This document shows, in pieces, positions 55-8,720 of a stretch of 20,884 bases of DNA. Location of the stretch: IMG/VR virus record IMGVR_UViG_3300030419_000958, positions 1 through 20,884 of that record, one strand, 5' to 3'. How positions within the stretch are numbered: position 1 is the stretch's first letter; the number at the start of each line of letters is the position of its first letter. The DNA comes from a virus. The notes below the pieces were generated by a model. The model saw only the letters and a list, made by a program, of their open reading frames with translations. It was not told where the DNA came from and did not search any database. The translations under genes were made by a program, and so were the position numbers.

Positions 55-224
55 CAAAGTATCAATAGTATCAATAGTATCAATAGTATCAATAGTATCA
101 CTCAAAAGCTAAAAAAAGGTGTTTTCCGCGCCCATATAGGTGATATTTTGATACTTTGGGGTAGATAGTATCATAGTATCATCTTACACACCCCTAGGGC
201 AAAGTATCAATAGTATCACTCAAC
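55..224. repeat. Iteron-like GTATCA repeat array (candidate origin or operator)
   Basis: Four perfect tandem 9-bp units AGTATCAAT (58-93) are followed by the variant AGTATCACT (94-102). The same block, CAAAGTATCAAT...AGTATCACTCAA, recurs with fewer units at 200-224. Two 8-bp AGTATCAT units lie at 167-182, and one inverted copy (TTGATACTTTG) at 148-158. In all there are nine direct and one inverted GTATCA cores in about 170 bp. The stop codon of the RepA-like ATPase gene (216-218) lies inside the last unit. Arrays of this kind next to replication genes are typical of iteron origins or of operators. The function here is inferred; the repeats are directly visible. Confidence 0.75.
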
Positions 225-1352
225 CGCGTCATAATCGCTTAAATTGTCTTTTTTAACTAAATATTTACCATGTCCTAATTTTTCGATCACATTCCACTCA
301 TTTAGCCTTTTTAGCCATCTTTTTGCCGTAACAATCGATACATTATTGAAATTATCGCTTTCCGCTACAAACATAGTAAATTCTTGCGTATAAAACTCAG
401 TTCCATCCGATAATCTTATATCTATAAACGATTTAAGTGCCTGGATTTCCATCTTTTCAGCCATATTCGTAAAGTACGCTATCTCGCTCTTAATAATCCC
501 TCGCCTAGTATAAAGCAAGTTGTCATCCAGGGTAAGTTTCAGCGGTTTATTATGCAAACTCGACCCGCTATACCGACTCTTGGTCCACTTCAAACATTTG
601 ATCGTCTCATCATTAACATTCGCTGCGATCTGAATCACACTATCGGCATTCATCGTTAGCTGCTTACCGCCCTGGATATGATTAATGTTTATCGGCTCTG
701 GGACCGAATTCTTATTATGATGGCCCACCAGGACAAAACAGATCTTATATTCATCCGAAATCTCGCGGATTCTTTTTAATACCGGCCTAAGTTCGCTATT
801 ATCGCTGAGATTTCTCTCGGTAGACGTATACATATTATCCACGATCACAACCGCACCTCTCGAATCTGGTAGGCGGCAATAATTTTCTATGCCATCCCAA
901 CGCTCACTAAAAGCGCCGCCGTCATAGGTTTTATAGAAAAACAGGGACGTATCAACTTGCGCTACATCCTCAGCCATTTTCTGGTATTGCAGCCTAACTC
1001 TTCTGGCGTATTCTTCATCGGTCAATTCAAAGTTAAAGATCATAACCTTACGTCTAACGCCCATCTCAAAATCTAAAAATCTCTCGCCAGTAACGATACA
1101 TAGCGCTAACTGCGAACACAAGATACTCTTACCACTACCCTCAGTACCCGCAAGTACAGTAATACCAGACTTTGGGAGTATAGGTTCAATAGTGAATTCG
1201 TGCTTTCCCTCGGATCTATTCATAAGCTCATCTAAGCTGATCATCCCGTTAGATGTCTCTTTTATACTGGGAATCTCTTTATTTTGTTTCTCGAGGTCCG
1301 TCGCATCCGCTCCCTCTGGCACATTGCTATAGTCTGGCTTACGCAACCGCAT
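216..1352 (-). CDS. RepA-like replicative ATPase/helicase (AAA_25 type) with C-terminal winged helix
   Basis: A 378-residue RecA-fold ATPase. Walker A is GTEGSGKS (residues about 69-76). Walker B is the hydrophobic strand ending VVIVDN (about 168-173), followed by a FVLVGHH strand (about 206-212) typical of RepA/DnaB-like RecA folds. The last 45 or so residues look like a winged helix (TAKRWLKRLNEW...GHGKYLV), suited to DNA binding. It lies directly downstream of the primase gene and overlaps it by 14 bases, so the two probably form the primase-helicase pair of the phage replisome. I chose ATG at 1352; an in-frame TTG at 1361 would add three residues. The gene ends inside the iteron-like array, consistent with a Rep protein that acts on nearby repeats. 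ATPase class is firm; the helicase role is inferred from family and context. Confidence 0.82.
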   Translation of the reverse strand: MRLRKPDYSNVPEGADATDLEKQNKEIPSIKETSNGMISLDELMNRSEGKHEFTIEPILPKSGITVLAGTEGSGKSILCSQLALCIVTGERFLDFEMGVRRKVMIFNFELTDEEYARRVRLQYQKMAEDVAQVDTSLFFYKTYDGGAFSERWDGIENYCRLPDSRGAVVIVDNMYTSTERNLSDNSELRPVLKRIREISDEYKICFVLVGHHNKNSVPEPININHIQGGKQLTMNADSVIQIAANVNDETIKCLKWTKSRYSGSSLHNKPLKLTLDDNLLYTRRGIIKSEIAYFTNMAEKMEIQALKSFIDIRLSDGTEFYTQEFTMFVAESDNFNNVSIVTAKRWLKRLNEWNVIEKLGHGKYLVKKDNLSDYDAVE

Positions 1353-2103
1353 ATCTTGCAAATCTTTCTATGAATTTCTCACTAGCTTTACGGCCAGCTT
1401 CATCGTTATCAAAGTACGGGAACAACTCCTCAAATTTATCTACCACCAGTTTGACCAGGTAATTCGGCCAGCGGGCCATTGCTCCATTGTTTAAAGTGAT
1501 TGCTTGTTTTCCGCTGGATATCAAGCTCACAACATCTTTTTCGCCCTCAGCTATATATAAGGTCTTCTTTGGATCGTATTTATGGACCATATGCCACATT
1601 GGGAATATATAAGTATTCGCGTGGCCAGTAACTTGTTTCTGCTTATGCCACTTAATATTGACCAGCTTACCATCCTCATTTAAGTACGGGAATACAAATG
1701 TATTATTGCCCCAGCCAATATTCAGCCGGGTAACTGCCGTTTTATTCCAGGGCAGATCATCGACCATAGCATCATAGTTCAATAGCAGCCGGTCCTGGGC
1801 CTCGCTTACAATCTCAATATACTCTTCAGATAGCGGTTTTGGCGGCGACCATATATCCGCCTTAAACTTAGTTCGCTTTATATTAGCCAAATTTGGGATC
1901 TGTTCTCCGACCATTTTTGCAAAAGTGATCGCATTTCCCTTGGTATCGCACCCAAAGCAATGAAATAGGCCATCATCGGTAAAATAAAAACTAGGCGTCT
2001 TATCATCGTGAAACGGGCAAAGACCTACCCAATTCCCAGGCTTACTGGCTTTTTTAATCCTTAATACATATTTAGAGAATAGATTATCGAAAAACTCTGG
2101 CAT
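1339..2103 (-). CDS. DNA primase, CHC2 zinc finger plus Toprim
   Basis: 254 residues. The N-terminal zinc-binding domain carries C29, H32, C49 and C52 in the CPFHDDKTPSF...HCFGC pattern of DnaG CHC2 fingers. A compact catalytic part follows, with the Toprim glutamate motif YIAEGEKD (residues 183-190) and the acidic motif FDNDEAG (231-237). It is much shorter than bacterial DnaG (about 580 residues) and lacks a DnaB-binding C-terminal domain. The separate ATPase encoded immediately downstream probably supplies the helicase function, as in many phages. It makes RNA primers for phage DNA synthesis. The start codon follows the stop of the upstream small gene directly (TGAATG), suggesting translational coupling. 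Identification is strong. Confidence 0.9.
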   Translation of the reverse strand: MPEFFDNLFSKYVLRIKKASKPGNWVGLCPFHDDKTPSFYFTDDGLFHCFGCDTKGNAITFAKMVGEQIPNLANIKRTKFKADIWSPPKPLSEEYIEIVSEAQDRLLLNYDAMVDDLPWNKTAVTRLNIGWGNNTFVFPYLNEDGKLVNIKWHKQKQVTGHANTYIFPMWHMVHKYDPKKTLYIAEGEKDVVSLISSGKQAITLNNGAMARWPNYLVKLVVDKFEELFPYFDNDEAGRKASEKFIERFARYAVA

Positions 2104-2286
2104 TCAAGACCCAATCTCACTAGCTGGAATAATTCCCTGGAGATACCACCAACCATTGCCGTTATCTTTCAAGGTTTTATTACGTTCTCTTATATATCTT
2201 GGATCTTCGAGGCTTTTGTATGGCCAACCGTTTCTCCATCGTTTCCAGTCGTCATTCTGTAGTGTTTTGTTGCGCTTTCTTGGCAT
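2104..2286 (-). CDS. Hypothetical 60-aa basic, Trp-rich protein with internal repeat
   Basis: I do not recognise this family. The protein is basic and rich in tryptophan. It contains two imperfect copies of an RNKTL(Q/K)(N/D) motif, at residues 5-11 and 36-42, each followed by a Trp-rich stretch (DDWKRWRNGW and NGNGWWYLQG), so it looks like an internal duplication. Its ATG sits inside the 3' end of the preceding small basic gene (35-base overlap), with a GGAGG-like stretch about 12 bases upstream. Its TGA abuts the primase ATG. The position suggests a small DNA-binding or primase-associated accessory protein, but that is only inference from charge and context. Confidence 0.6.
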   Translation of the reverse strand: MPRKRNKTLQNDDWKRWRNGWPYKSLEDPRYIRERNKTLKDNGNGWWYLQGIIPASEIGS

Positions 2287-2383
2287 TCTTTCTAGCCCTC
2301 CTCTTGTTTGCTTTATATTCTTTAATCTTTTTTGTAGCGAGTCTTTTCATTCTTTTGCGCTGTTTTGCCTCTTTATTTGGCAT
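2252..2383 (-). CDS. Small lysine/arginine-rich protein (43 aa)
   Basis: A 43-residue strongly basic ORF beginning MPNKEAKQRKRMKR and probably mostly helical. No family recognised. An AGAGG Shine-Dalgarno lies five bases before the ATG. The ATG lies within the last codons of the methylase gene (11-base overlap, GATGCCAAATAA), and its 3' end overlaps the next gene. The start region is part of a 17-base sequence that recurs exactly at the methylase start. Small basic proteins like this in phage replication operons may bind nucleic acid, but nothing here proves it. The case for coding rests on the ribosome site and coupled overlaps. Confidence 0.55.
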   Translation of the reverse strand: MPNKEAKQRKRMKRLATKKIKEYKANKRRARKNAKKAQQNTTE

Positions 2384-2386
2384 CTT
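2370..2386. repeat. 17-bp direct repeat, copy 1 (3' junction of methylase gene)
   Basis: TCTTTATTTGGCATCTT here is identical to 2776-2792. On the coding strand each copy encodes the final Asp-Ala-Lys-stop of the upstream gene and, in another frame, the initial Met-Pro-Asn-Lys of the next. The two copies bracket the methylase gene precisely. Confidence 0.85.
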
Positions 2387-2789
2387 TACCTCTTAAAACG
2401 AATAAAGTTGTATTCGACGCCTTAGGCCAAGGCTCGCCAGTTTCAGCATCTAGCCATTTTACCCTACCTAAAGATCTTGCCTCAGCTCCAGCCTCTAATA
2501 ATAAATTGATAAAAGACATTGTATTAATCGTAATAACGACCGTTTTACCTTTTTTATTTTCTTCGATAGCCTTACGTATAAAAGCTGTCGGACCTTTGCC
2601 ATTTTCACTATCAGCTTTCCTAAATGGGGGATTGCAGTAAGTAACATTACCCCAATCGATCTCAGTCCCATCTACCCCCTCATATGGATAAGGACATGGA
2701 TCAAAATCAAAGCCAAATTCAGCATCTAATTTTTTATATAAGTCTGGCGGTGTAATCCAATATTTTTTCCTATCTTCTTTATTTGGCAT
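2373..2789 (-). CDS. dam: Phage DNA N6-adenine methyltransferase (Dam type)
   Basis: 138 residues from the preferred ATG at 2789. The sequence runs from KYWITPPDLYKKLDAEFGFDFDPCPYP to an adenine-methylase catalytic motif, CNPPF. This matches the small phage N-6-adenine methyltransferase family (Pfam Dam, PF05869), which uses S-adenosylmethionine and usually targets GATC. An ATG six codons upstream (2807) lacks a good ribosome site, whereas AGGA lies about seven bases before 2789. It also produces an 11-base overlap with the preceding Zn-ribbon gene identical to the overlap at its own 3' end. GATC sites are common throughout the window, so the phage does not avoid this sequence. Likely roles are protection from host restriction or marking of phage DNA. 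Confidence 0.85.
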   Translation of the reverse strand: MPNKEDRKKYWITPPDLYKKLDAEFGFDFDPCPYPYEGVDGTEIDWGNVTYCNPPFRKADSENGKGPTAFIRKAIEENKKGKTVVITINTMSFINLLLEAGAEARSLGRVKWLDAETGEPWPKASNTTLFVLRGKDAK

Positions 2790-2792
2790 CTT
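2776..2792. repeat. 17-bp direct repeat, copy 2 (5' junction of methylase gene)
   Basis: Identical to 2370-2386. It contains the end of the Zn-ribbon gene (Asp-Ala-Lys-stop) and the start of the methylase (Met-Pro-Asn-Lys-Glu). Confidence 0.85.
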
Positions 2793-2946
2793 CTTTTCCT
2801 GGCTCATCTGTTATAGAAAACTCAGCGCTTGCCTCGCAACTGGAGCATAATAATACTGTAACCTGGCCCTCTCCCTCGCGCCCGTACTCTTCGTAAGTAA
2901 AATCAGACTGCCAGACCATTTTCTCTCCACAAAACCAGCAAGTCAT
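2779..2946 (-). CDS. Small Zn-ribbon protein, CxxC...CxxC (55 aa)
   Basis: A 55-residue ORF beginning MTCWFCGEKMVW. Two CxxC pairs (C3/C6 and C34/C37) are separated by an acidic segment, YEEYGREGEGQV. This is a zinc ribbon of a type I have seen as small conserved proteins of unknown function in many phages. Its ATG overlaps the stop of the PD-(D/E)XK nuclease gene (TAATG), and its own stop overlaps the methylase start by 11 bases. It may bind nucleic acid or act as an adaptor; the biochemical role is unknown. The coding assignment is strong because the Cys spacing and both coupled junctions agree. Confidence 0.75.
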   Translation of the reverse strand: MTCWFCGEKMVWQSDFTYEEYGREGEGQVTVLLCSSCEASAEFSITDEPGKEDAK

Positions 2947-3593
2947 TACGCATCTTTCTTCAATTTCTCAAGCTCCATACAGCACTTAAACACATTCCAT
3001 CCCCAGTCAAGCTGCTGCTTACTAACGAAATGATGCGAAAATGCGCCGGAGTTTTTATCTAGCTTGAGTATCATTGCGGATCCTATCTTAGCTTTAGGCT
3101 GCAACTCTAGATACATTTTACGGTAAGCGGCCAGTTGGCAAGTCATCTCTGGGTATATACCCTTTGATGTCTTGAAGTCTCCCAGGACCAGGGATCCATT
3201 TATCCTGGCAATAAAATCTGCGGTCCCGCCAACCTCATATTTTTCGCTTACCATTTTTAATTCTATTGCCTCATACTTGGGTTTTGTCATCTTTTCCCAT
3301 TCTAAATATCCTAAAAAAGCATTCTCAGCTTTCTCAATTTGCTCCGCAGAATAATCAGCCACATCTGGCTCTTCGCCCTTGATATGACTTTCGCATAGAT
3401 AATGAGCCAAGGTCCCAATCGTACCCGCCTCTTTCAATACCGCGTCTGGATCGTCGCCAGCTAGGGCAGTACGTCTAGCCCAGGCCACCAATACATTCTT
3501 ATTCCAACCTAAGTTATTTAATATGGTCGTAACGCCTTTGACGCGCCGGCCATCTTTTAATCTATACGCAGTATGCGCTTTTGTTTTTGCCAT
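2946..3593 (-). CDS. PD-(D/E)XK exonuclease, Cas4/RecB-like
   Basis: 215 residues with the motif order of RecB/Cas4-type nucleases: GTLAH (H64) in the N-terminal helix region, GGTADF (D126), the catalytic LGDFKTSK (D139, K141), and QLAAY (Q153, Y157). Such phage nucleases process DNA ends for recombination or replication, typically next to an SSB or recombinase. Here the operon also carries an SSB and a Holliday-junction resolvase-like protein, so a recombination role is likely. No iron-sulfur Cys cluster of the Cas4 kind is evident: there is only an adjacent Cys pair near the C terminus plus isolated Cys residues. It is translationally coupled to the Zn-ribbon gene downstream. Confidence 0.8.
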   Translation of the reverse strand: MAKTKAHTAYRLKDGRRVKGVTTILNNLGWNKNVLVAWARRTALAGDDPDAVLKEAGTIGTLAHYLCESHIKGEEPDVADYSAEQIEKAENAFLGYLEWEKMTKPKYEAIELKMVSEKYEVGGTADFIARINGSLVLGDFKTSKGIYPEMTCQLAAYRKMYLELQPKAKIGSAMILKLDKNSGAFSHHFVSKQQLDWGWNVFKCCMELEKLKKDA

Positions 3594-3697: not shown

Positions 3698-4147
3698 CTA
3701 ATTGGCTTTTTTTGCAATTTCGATCCATTTCTTTAGTGATTTTTTAAGCGCTTCATTAGCAATACGACCGATAGGCTTGTTCTTGATCGTAGCTTTGATC
3801 TTCATTGCATTATAAACATCAAGATCTAATTCGCTATTGAAACGCTTGGTCTTGCCCTTAAAAGTCTTTATAAATTCTTTATTTAGCTTAGGTCCTAACC
3901 TACGAATGAGTTTTTTCTCAGAGGCCTGGGCTTCCTCTAGATTAAGTAAAACCTTGAACTTGGCATATTTGTGTTCTTTCTCATGCGTTTTAATCCGCTG
4001 AAATATTTTAACTGAGTGGCCAATGTATATAAGACCATTATCATCGTATAAAGCATAGACTCCAATGTGTTTTTGATGACCCAGGTTCATCTCAACATCT
4101 TCATCGTATGTGTACCAGACGCCAGGCATTATTCCAAACATACTCAT
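3698..4147 (-). CDS. GIY-YIG endonuclease with C-terminal ribbon-helix-helix-like domain
   Basis: 149 residues. The GIY-YIG module is clear: GVY (29-31), YIG (41-43), R51 in QRIKTH, E77 in QASEKKL and N89 in KLNK, all in the right order. The tail, residues about 103-141 (FNSELDLDVYNAMKIKATIKN... then GRIANEALKKSLKKW), resembles a ribbon-helix-helix DNA-binding fold (short strand, two helices). That would make this a nuclease fused to a sequence-specific binding module, as in some homing endonucleases, or a junction-cleaving enzyme. Its ATG overlaps the stop of the Nmad1 gene (TAATG). The nuclease call is strong; the C-terminal fold is my reading of the pattern. Confidence 0.8.
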   Translation of the reverse strand: MSMFGIMPGVWYTYDEDVEMNLGHQKHIGVYALYDDNGLIYIGHSVKIFQRIKTHEKEHKYAKFKVLLNLEEAQASEKKLIRRLGPKLNKEFIKTFKGKTKRFNSELDLDVYNAMKIKATIKNKPIGRIANEALKKSLKKWIEIAKKAN

Positions 4148-5162: not shown

Positions 5163-5281
5163 ACGGTTAATTCCCGAACCTTATTTGGATTGGTTGCAAA
5201 ACCGCAACGCAACTCTTGTTTGTTATCATATCCAGCAAGGGCGCATACCTTATTATTCTTTAAGGGGCATCTTTCAAACAT
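5120..5281 (-). CDS. Small four-cysteine, putative zinc-binding protein (53 aa)
   Basis: A 53-residue ORF starting MFERCPLKNNKVCALAGY. Cys residues at 5, 13, 26 and 41 are followed by a strongly basic tail, KKAKRKRR. The pattern suggests a single metal site with a nucleic-acid-binding tail. The ATG lies within the end of the resolvase gene (22-base overlap, different frame) with no separate Shine-Dalgarno, implying coupled translation. Its end is overlapped by the 66-aa gene. It fills what would otherwise be a 97-base gap in an operon almost free of gaps. I do not recognise a named family. Confidence 0.6.
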   Translation of the reverse strand: MFERCPLKNNKVCALAGYDNKQELRCGFATNPNKVRELTVCGLELKKAKRKRR

Positions 5282-5667
5282 CGTACCCAATCATCAAATG
5301 TCATTACTACAAATGTGATCCCCCGGTCCTCGCGAAACATAACCACATCGCAGTTACCCAGGCTTAACCATTTAGGAATGGTCTTGCGCCGCTTGGCTTG
5401 GATCTTTATTTTATCAGCCACAATATCTACATCAGAGGCTTGACCTAAGGACCTACCATCGGATCCCCAGGCACGCTTAACACCCTTAAATCCAGCGGCA
5501 ATCAATTTCTTAACCAGCTCATTTTCATAGCCGGTTCCTTTTTGCTTACTATTGGCCATAGACTTATCCCAATCTTGTTGCAGCTTTTGTATTTCTTCTT
5601 TAGATCTATTCTCTAGCTTAGAACGGCAAATCTTCGTCGGATACTGGTCCGTCTTTTTTACTTGCAT
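5260..5667 (-). CDS. Holliday-junction resolvase-like PD-(D/E)XK nuclease (Hjc type)
   Basis: 135 residues from ATG 5667, which has GGAGG nine bases upstream. Longer (5706) and shorter (5559) starts have no comparable ribosome site. Catalytic signature: KGTGYENELVKKL with E48, then GQASDVDIVAD (D79/D81) and the strand KIQAKRRK (Q90-x-K92). This is the E...D...QxK arrangement of archaeal Hjc-like and related phage nucleases. It probably resolves recombination or replication intermediates in phage DNA. Residues 1-40 form a charged extension not typical of Hjc. The start lies inside the SSB gene (50-base overlap), so SSB and resolvase are co-translated. Confidence 0.75.
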   Translation of the reverse strand: MQVKKTDQYPTKICRSKLENRSKEEIQKLQQDWDKSMANSKQKGTGYENELVKKLIAAGFKGVKRAWGSDGRSLGQASDVDIVADKIKIQAKRRKTIPKWLSLGNCDVVMFREDRGITFVVMTFDDWVRCLKDAP

Positions 5668-6196
5668 CAAAACTGACCTCCTTTTGCTCTTGTTTTGGCT
5701 TGGCAAAGGTTACTGAGTCTCCACTATTCTTTTCTGCTATCTGGACCTCATTAAGATATATGCTGATTGATTGCTTGCCTTGCCTGTCCCACACTTTTGG
5801 CCTAACAGCTAGATTAACCACATCTCCGCCGTAGGGATTATCCATTGTTCTTTGGCCTTGCATATCAAATACATCTGGGAAGCGCTCTACGCCATCTCTA
5901 TAATAAATAGCGTTTTTAAATACTATATAATCTGGTCCATCTTTTAATTGACAACTTTTTATCTTATCGCCTACTTGTTTTTTAAGACCATTAACTGTTT
6001 CAACGCCAGATTGCTTAACAACCTCTTTAATCATTTTTTCTAGCTCATTATTACATTCCACTAGCACACTATGGCCAGATTCGTATACCAAGTCTGGTTT
6101 TTGTATGTGCGAAAATTTAACGGTTAGATTGTTAAATGTCATTGTAGTGAACTTGACGGGCGATTTCATATTACCCGACTTTTTATTTACGGCCAT
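5618..6196 (-). CDS. Single-stranded DNA-binding protein, phage type
   Basis: 192 residues. The diagnostic feature is the acidic C-terminal tip DEDLPF, after a low-complexity Lys/Gln/Asp linker. This is the partner-recruiting tail of bacterial and phage SSBs. The body, beginning TTMTFNNLTVKFSHIQKPDL, resembles phage ssDNA-binding proteins of the T7 gp2.5 or DUF2815-like kind more than bacterial OB-fold SSB; I infer an OB fold without proof. AGGAG lies eight bases before the ATG. It would coat replication intermediates and recruit the primase, nuclease and resolvase encoded downstream. Confidence 0.72.
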   Translation of the reverse strand: MAVNKKSGNMKSPVKFTTMTFNNLTVKFSHIQKPDLVYESGHSVLVECNNELEKMIKEVVKQSGVETVNGLKKQVGDKIKSCQLKDGPDYIVFKNAIYYRDGVERFPDVFDMQGQRTMDNPYGGDVVNLAVRPKVWDRQGKQSISIYLNEVQIAEKNSGDSVTFAKPKQEQKEVSFDASKKDGPVSDEDLPF

Positions 6197-7185: not shown

Positions 7186-7614
7186 ATGACACAATTATCT
7201 CGTAAGGAATTAGCTGAAATTATTATTAATGGCGAAGAATGGTCAGATCAAGACTGGACCAATACTACCGGTATATCGCGCCAAACATTTTGGAGAATGC
7301 GTACTAATAAAATTAAAGGTGTCGAATCTAAAACAATAGAATTAATGGCTCGCGCAAGCGGTCGTAAGGTCATATGGAAAGATCACTCAAAAACTCTTGG
7401 AAAATTAGATACAAACAATAAACATATGGAGGAAAACTTGACAGACGTAGAACATACCTTGCTATTATATCGCGAAACGATACAGTTGCAAAAAGAAAAA
7501 ATAAAAACCCTCGAAACTAAACTAAGTAATATCGTAAATGATTATGCTTCTGGTTTAGATGTTTTACTGCATAAGGAAATACTTAAACTAAGTAAGTCAA
7601 AGGAGAAAGATTAA
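7186..7614 (+). CDS. HTH regulator with C-terminal coiled coil
   Basis: 142 residues. The N-terminal part has a helix-turn-helix-like segment (WTNTTGISRQTFWRMRTNK, residues about 24-42) and a following helix, SKTIELMARASGRKVIW, like the end of XRE domains. Residues 82-115 form a coiled coil (LLLYRETIQLQKEKIKTLETK listed in part), probably for dimerisation. GGAGG lies eight bases before the ATG, the strongest ribosome site seen here. The TAA overlaps the integrase ATG (TAATG), so regulator and integrase are co-produced. That fits a lysogeny-promoting repressor, divergent from the small Cro/CI-like gene. The DNA-binding call is inferred from pattern. Confidence 0.65.
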   Translation: MTQLSRKELAEIIINGEEWSDQDWTNTTGISRQTFWRMRTNKIKGVESKTIELMARASGRKVIWKDHSKTLGKLDTNNKHMEENLTDVEHTLLLYRETIQLQKEKIKTLETKLSNIVNDYASGLDVLLHKEILKLSKSKEKD

Positions 7615-8720
7615 TGGCTAAGATTATAAATAAAAAACCTGGTAATAAATATGTCATACAATATATACCTCAAGGGTTTAAAACCATTTACAAAAATCCA
7701 TACAGACGTATTACGGTTATTGGCAAAACTAAAGCTGATCGTACTGTGGCGGATCTTACTGCCATAGAAGTAATCGATAAAAATGAGCGCAGATTAGGTA
7801 GGACAGATATTGCAGAGATAGCTAAAGAAATTAGCATTGGAGAATTGTTTACATTTTTTGAAGACCAAGTAATGCCCTGGTGCGATTACGCTAAAAGAAC
7901 GGAAGAACGCTACACTCGTATAATGAACAAATTAGTTAATGACTTTGGATCTCAATTCTTATTTAAGAATATTACCTATAAACTAATTCTTTCTAATTAT
8001 GCTACAGGAAAGCGTAACCAATGTATTACAATGATTAAGTGCATAAATCACATTGGAGCTATAGGCCGCCAGGCAATCGCTGGGCAGCTTGAGATAGCAT
8101 TAAACGGCTATAAGATAAGTTCGCACCCGATCAAGACGCCTAAGATAATTAAGGGAAATAAAAACCCATTAAGTATTGAACAGTTGGAAGAAATCTATGC
8201 TAACCCAGATATTAATGATCTGACTAAAGATATTATGCGACTTTATATTATTACAGGCTGCCGGGTATCTGAATTAACGCGTCCATATTTTGAATGGAGT
8301 CAGATTGATAATCTCAATGGCATTGCTTTCATACGCAACAAGGGTAATAAGAAAGAACACTCTACTATGCTTGAAATACCCTGGTTAGACCAGCATCAGC
8401 AACTACTAGAGCGTATTGCAGCATACTATAAACCCTGGCATCAACTGGCAAGCCATTATCCAATTCCGATTACCAGTCAAAATGTTTATGACCGCATACG
8501 AACTGCAAGTAAGATTAGTGGTTATCATTTTACGCCACACGACCTAAGAGATACTGGTGCTACTTTAATTCTTAGATCTACTGGAAATATTTATGCCGCT
8601 AAAGAATTTTGTGGCCATAAAAGCGTACGCGATACAGAAGAGTCTTATGCTGACTATAATATCTATGATAAAAAGAACGCTACAAGTAAACTCTTAAATC
8701 ACTTAGGGTCATTATTATAG
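7614..8720 (+). CDS. int: Tyrosine recombinase, phage integrase
   Basis: 368 residues with the full catalytic set: R217 in TGCRVSEL, H309 and R312 in the HDLRDTGATL box, H335 in GHKS and the nucleophile Y345 in EESYADY. A central SAM-like core-binding region precedes the catalytic domain, and a likely arm-binding N-terminal domain starts the protein. GGAG lies upstream of the ATG. The gene ends about 130 bases from the tRNA-Ser fragment that forms the proposed attP core. It would integrate the phage into a host tRNA-Ser gene and, with an excisionase, reverse this. Identification is firm. Confidence 0.93.
   Translation: MAKIINKKPGNKYVIQYIPQGFKTIYKNPYRRITVIGKTKADRTVADLTAIEVIDKNERRLGRTDIAEIAKEISIGELFTFFEDQVMPWCDYAKRTEERYTRIMNKLVNDFGSQFLFKNITYKLILSNYATGKRNQCITMIKCINHIGAIGRQAIAGQLEIALNGYKISSHPIKTPKIIKGNKNPLSIEQLEEIYANPDINDLTKDIMRLYIITGCRVSELTRPYFEWSQIDNLNGIAFIRNKGNKKEHSTMLEIPWLDQHQQLLERIAAYYKPWHQLASHYPIPITSQNVYDRIRTASKISGYHFTPHDLRDTGATLILRSTGNIYAAKEFCGHKSVRDTEESYADYNIYDKKNATSKLLNHLGSLL

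Follow-up and report, generated by a model that had tools for sequence, protein, structure and literature searches.

The exonuclease-primase locus and its repeated junction

The stretch of DNA analysed here, referred to as the window, is an IMG/VR virus record in full, 20,884 bases long. On its minus strand, an exonuclease gene is followed in order by a Zn-ribbon-like gene, a predicted Dam-family methylase gene, a small basic gene, a 60-aa gene, a primase gene and a gene for a helicase-like ATPase (Table 1). The exonuclease is conserved, with 74-93% identity in most of 31 related loci. The Zn-ribbon-like gene has CxxC pairs visible in its sequence and has no match in Pfam or PHROG. No near relatives of the window at the DNA level were found among named phages, and searches of GTDB genomes with the exonuclease and the basic protein gave no confirmed prophage relatives.

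Table 1. Features of the locus and candidate recombination genes in the window
Feature	Position	Strand	Evidence and remarks
Helicase-like ATPase	216..1361	-	
CHC2/Toprim primase	1339..2103	-	PF01807, E 3e-15; right anchor of the locus
60-aa gene, overlapping the basic gene	2104..2286	-	ORF; 75% DNA identity in L001
Small basic-protein gene, MPNKEAKQRKR.., 43 aa	2252..2383	-	Where the junction motif originates
Right junction, copy 2 of AAGATGCCAAATAAAGA	2370..2386	-	Exact match; methylase stop over basic-gene start, 11 nt
Predicted Dam-family N6-adenine methyltransferase, 138 aa from MPNKED	2373..2789	-	PF05869, E 7.4e-9; phrog_111
Left junction, copy 1 of AAGATGCCAAATAAAGA	2776..2792	-	Exact match; Zn-ribbon stop over methylase start, 11 nt
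Zn-ribbon-like gene, 55 aa, ending ..KEDAK-stop	2779..2946	-	ORF; alternative neighbour of the junction
PD-(D/E)XK exonuclease	2946..3593	-	phrog_298 exonuclease, E 7e-27; conserved left anchor of the variable locus
RusA-like Holliday junction resolvase	5260..5706	-	phrog_244, E 6e-12; candidate recombination function
Gp2.5-like ssDNA-binding/annealing protein	5618..6196	-	phrog_112, E 2e-11; candidate recombination function

Two further features of the window were observed. Upstream of the exonuclease, positions 3698-4147 encode a GIY-YIG-like protein (PF01541, under the curated cut-off) with a C-terminal extension, which is kept in the relative L001. Near the end of the record, at 57-106, there is a tandem 9-bp repeat, AGTATCAAT, with a further occurrence at 200-223, where the helicase-like gene ends; it is perhaps an origin or a regulatory iteron.

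The description of the junctions given in an earlier note on this DNA is accurate. The 17-mer AAGATGCCAAATAAAGA is present in exactly two identical copies, 406 bp apart on the minus strand, and no third copy with up to two mismatches is found in the window. The same 11-base overlap is formed at both sites (2779-2789 and 2373-2383), where the upstream gene ends with GAT GCC AAA TAA (Asp-Ala-Lys-stop) over the ATG CCA AAT AAA (Met-Pro-Asn-Lys) that opens the following gene. The interval between the copies is exactly one gene, that of the Dam-type methylase (PF05869).

The product of this gene passes the PF05869 profile with 35.9 bits against a curated cut-off of 28.1, and carries a catalytic motif of the NPPF type (YCNPPF) that is conserved in L001; it is predicted to be a Dam-family N6-adenine methyltransferase. 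An in-frame ATG at 2807 would make it six codons longer (144 aa instead of 138), but position 2789 is the likelier start because MPPNK is the most upstream start in L001, whose methylase has 95% amino acid identity to that of the window. Dam homologues in named phages are all below 60% identity.

The methylase unit consists of just this gene. Profile searches detected no recombinase or endonuclease in it, and no inverted repeats were found; a self-mobile element (transposon, homing endonuclease or integron-like cassette) was rejected given that the unit lacks its own recombinase or endonuclease and terminal inverted repeats. Between 2100 and 3100 there are no terminators, the junctions have no terminator hairpin, and a single promoter-like site (2.2 expected by chance) lies within the methylase gene and is not convincing. 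A moron or PeSL cassette, which would bring its own promoter and terminator, was rejected as well.

The start of the small basic gene and its upstream neighbours

The start of the basic protein, MPNKEAKQRKR.., is common to about 50 homologous IMG/VR loci, many of them with ATGCCAAATAAAG or a close variant of it. At least eight non-homologous upstream gene families stop at the TAA embedded in this start, most of them ending in ..AK or ..APK before the stop. These families comprise the Dam methylase, a C5 methylase, small membrane proteins, and genes of L065, L085, L105, L119/L120 and L129. The ends of the two methylases differ from those of their relatives elsewhere: C5 methylases end in ..LHD in other places versus ..NAK or ..HAK at the basic-gene start, and Dam methylases in RGKNV or RGKTK versus RGKDAK at the junction. 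The Zn-ribbon gene of L053 and L059 stops three codons further into the basic gene, because the embedded TAA reads CAA there. From these comparisons, the start of the basic gene thus works as a linker, whose stop codon also ends the upstream neighbour.

The 17-mer as a dedicated cassette site is not supported by these data, since what is conserved here is the beginning of a small gene found at many loci. The earlier note would have counted it against the cassette if the 17-mer were common in the phage family as a general ribosome-start context; this applies in part, the motif being common as the conserved start of one widespread gene and not as a general start context. The exact 15-mer GATGCCAAATAAAGM occurs in at least 100 IMG/VR stretches (well over that number), a count that is by estimate roughly at chance level for a collection of this size, and the list was set aside as evidence of a general ribosome-start context. 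In named phages the basic protein has no match by tblastn, a search made uninformative by the low-complexity filter.

On the methylase, the same start is rare. Only two of about 30 Dam homologues inspected begin with MP(P)NK, those of the window and of its nearest relative L001, and a degenerate IMG/VR search for other methylases starting with NKEDRKKYW returned only the contig of L001. The left copy of the junction, on the methylase, is therefore the anomalous one; the basic gene normally begins with this sequence, which accounts for the right copy.

The arrangement with a junction on each side of the methylase is found in two genomes, the window and L001, and in each of them the two junctions agree. 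In L001 both read ATGCCCCCAAATAAAG, with the same 3-bp insertion (+CCC, MPPNK/MPPNK), such that the comparison of the 17-mer in relatives proposed earlier reveals co-variation of the two junctions within a genome. L065 has a basic gene of the L001 type, of nearly the same sequence and with the same +CCC, preceded by an unrelated gene and with no methylase directly in front. Given that +CCC is found on a basic gene without methylase, the left junction of L001 most likely acquired it from the basic gene.

The limits of similarity also fall at the junctions. The window and L001 are 93.5% identical across the methylase block, and this similarity starts and stops at the junctions: on the upstream side of the left ATG, matches drop to about 57% of the aligned bases, and immediately beyond the right junction the identity is about 63%. 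L001 and L065, as well as L065 and L069, are unrelated upstream of GATGCC and nearly identical downstream. As expected of linker exchange, similarity breaks at the linker in all three comparisons, and the edges of the module carry identical sequence, of 17 bp in the window, 16 bp in L001 and 18 bp in L053.

It had been predicted that in some relatives the Zn-ribbon gene would lead to the basic gene through a single junction without the methylase, and this is found in L053 and L059. The nearest match to the window arrangement with a single junction is L059, which is diverged, with 57% amino acid identity in the Zn-ribbon protein. Searches for relatives of the Zn-ribbon gene gave none with the protein of the window and 33 loci with that of L053. 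When the flanks of the window are joined in silico at the junction, both neighbouring proteins are unchanged, the Zn-ribbon letter for letter. The membrane gene found upstream in L001 runs straight into the basic gene in L071/L072. Among the relatives no near-identical sibling of the window without the methylase was seen, and loss of this methylase was not observed; single-copy, module-free relatives form close pairs for other modules at the locus, and for the window methylase they are only the diverged L053 and L059.

Among these 33 loci, at L257/L258 (from 3001), a Zn-ribbon gene is followed by a different gene of 262 aa (MKTDNGYVYF..), with the same 11-nt overlap register after GAAGATG. This gene is a third alternative downstream partner of the Zn-ribbon gene.

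Occupied and empty sites at the locus

All related contigs were compared for the presence or absence of short units. L053 and L059 differ by one gene of 533 bp, with flanks that are 99.2% identical over 5652 bp and 97.7% over 746 bp. Both ends of this gene read AGAAGGAAATATAATGAA, an 18-bp repeat at a stop/start junction (KEI-stop/M) around which similarity reaches 28 bp at 86%. This occupied/empty pair with near-identical flanks indicates that a unit bounded by this second connector comes and goes. The connector has a Shine-Dalgarno-like sequence, and function may therefore keep its copies similar, so that part of the likeness could be due to convergence. Further pairs have an aligned junction of 21 bp (L056-L058 and L060) or junction repeats of 11 bp (L060 and L077, with an 89-bp gene; L063 and L068) and 10 bp (L078 and L067).

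The 533-bp gene itself (MKEKRY.., 177 aa) has no Pfam or PHROG match; by eye, its IPDGYLF..FIIEIEN stretch resembles a PD-(D/E)XK nuclease core.

In the exonuclease-primase interval of the window, L001, L051, L069 and L077, methylases of three types alternate (Dam, PF05869; C5, PF00145; N6/N4, PF01555), which makes it a methylase-swap slot. Such alternation in one interval may bear on the evasion of host restriction. The C5-cytosine methylase (L051, 5652-7300; also L056-L058, L066, L068 and L070-L073) is present as pieces in three frames, and the same loci have a long overlapping ORF of 359-521 aa, rich in W-P-T-P repeats; this possibly reflects frameshifting, or two overlapping genes.

Probable exchange of genes through stop/start overlaps

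The breakpoints, the duplication of the junction, its co-variation and, for other genes at the locus, the occupied/empty pairs are features of the compared sequences themselves. From these features, we infer that the exonuclease-primase locus is likely a gene-exchange region, in which short-homology recombination has its breakpoints in stop/start overlaps. The earlier proposal that the methylase is a cassette bounded by junctions and moved by recombination is retained in part: the shared block ends at the junctions and other single genes come and go between duplicated junctions, but the site is not dedicated to this purpose.

In the proposed mechanism, ATGCCAAATAAAG would act as a linker, beginning the basic protein in one frame and giving -Ala-Lys-stop to the upstream gene in another. 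The start of the methylase would once have been fused to a copy of the linker (MPNKE + DRKKYW..), an initial fusion that was possibly illegitimate. The fused methylase could then recombine through the linker into a single-junction phage, leaving the junction duplicated with one copy on each side; were these two copies to recombine with each other, the 406-bp unit would be lost and both neighbours would stay as they are. In a cross between a donor with two junctions and a single-junction phage, a left crossover within the motif's 3' half together with a right one within its 5' half would place the variant of the recipient at both ends, as L001 shows. The enzymes are probably the phage's own, judging from the presence of genes for an exonuclease, a Gp2.5-like annealing protein and a RusA-like resolvase within a few kilobases. 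A length of 17 bp is short for RecA-type recombination, and recombination of the annealing type is assumed here. Products broken at the overlap would keep their neighbours whole and coupled and would, therefore, survive selection; coupled translation as the reason why recombinants persist is, like the direction of the events, part of this reconstruction.

How phages gain and lose single genes in tightly overlapped operons is a matter of long-standing debate, between homology at boundary sequences and illegitimate recombination. According to the latter (the Hendrix-Hatfull view), recombination would occur at random positions, selection would retain only products broken at gene boundaries, and the repeat would be a by-product of the first fusion site. 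Many phage mosaic boundaries are indeed without shared sequence (PMC3029335), and some events at this locus have an overlap of only 0-2 bp (L069/L073 and L054/L077). The single-gene events at the exonuclease end, however, have repeats of 10-21 bp exactly at stop/start junctions, with 17 bp for the window methylase, and a purely illegitimate origin is considered unlikely.

It is less likely still that the two genes evolved the MPNK start independently, without recombination, favoured by the good coupled overlap that an out-of-frame TAA inside a start provides. With a stop inside the start, every upstream gene read in that frame automatically ends in DAK, and 5-10% of Markov simulations with the length and composition of the window contain a 17-bp direct repeat at some position. 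The repeat per se is accordingly weak evidence, and it is its register and position that matter. Against convergence, the MP(P)NK start was found, among about 30 Dam genes inspected, only on the two that adjoin a basic gene, the same +CCC is present at both junctions of L001, and the blocks of similarity end at the junctions. Moreover, in a survey covering the window and its relatives, no run of 12 or more bases in register is common to any of 1425 pairs of non-adjacent gene junctions; adjacent junctions in the same survey share up to 13 (L056) and 16 bases (L001 contig). The 17 bases of the window and the 18 of L053 also belong to adjacent junctions, but were left unpaired by the automatic gene calls of this survey and are taken from separate comparisons. 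A chance repeat was likewise rejected, on position, co-variation and breakpoints.

A dedicated mobile element, with a recombinase or endonuclease that recognises the junction as its target, would fit a short, repeated site reused by several modules, but is very improbable given the gene content of the methylase unit described above, the use of two different junction sequences by different modules at the same locus, and an integrase in the window (7614-8720) that is an ordinary tyrosine integrase by family.

A swap at an overlap leaves the neighbouring proteins intact while genes are gained, lost and exchanged in an uncultured phage and its relatives. The locus offers natural examples at base resolution, where the breakpoint is a coding overlap and the site is regenerated on insertion. 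As a tentative extension, stop/start overlaps could serve throughout this phage family as reusable linkers, ending and beginning proteins, keeping coupling and providing homology. If so, each insertion would regenerate its own site, and any number of genes could be stacked or removed without damage.

Comparison with known systems

The earlier note knew of no described module of this kind, a statement that does not hold as worded, given that duplicated gene boundaries around a gained or lost phage gene are known. In the Cluster I mycobacteriophages Brujita and Island3, the extra gene 68 is flanked by duplicated gene-end sequence and a relative has a single recombinant copy; short boundary sequences were proposed as the sites of general recombination (PMC3029335). 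This is the closest described case, sharing with the present locus an extra gene between duplicated boundaries and a single-copy relative. It differs in that the repeat there is of about 60 bp at gene 3' ends, whereas here it is a stop/start overlap of 17 bp (or 10-21 bp) that codes for two proteins at once, closing one and opening the other, and that serves many unrelated genes in turn. More generally, phage mosaicism has been attributed to boundary (linker) sequences, through homologous recombination at short sequences common to module edges (PMC3029335). Here, by contrast, the linker is itself coding, at the point where a single conserved gene begins.

Two other systems of short repeats are comparable in part. 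The SAS/ESAS of Cluster K mycobacteriophages are repeated at many genes, 3-7 bp upstream of the start, as a ribosome-binding element with a proposed role in translation, and the upstream stop codon is sometimes inside the SAS; in passages of that paper that deal with them, they are not described as module boundaries (PMC3203893). They resemble the present junctions as short repeats at translation starts, although here the repeat spans the start codon and the first codons, has two copies and bounds a gained gene. The PeSL cassettes of T4-like phages, as cited in PMC4503421, are repeated promoter/terminator elements between genes that mediate shuffling; the junctions described here, by comparison, have neither promoter nor terminator hairpin. 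No description of exactly such a stop/start-overlap linker was found in the open literature. The type of shuffling is known; the difference here lies in the linker, which coincides with the coding stop/start overlap and puts the start of a single conserved gene to repeated use.
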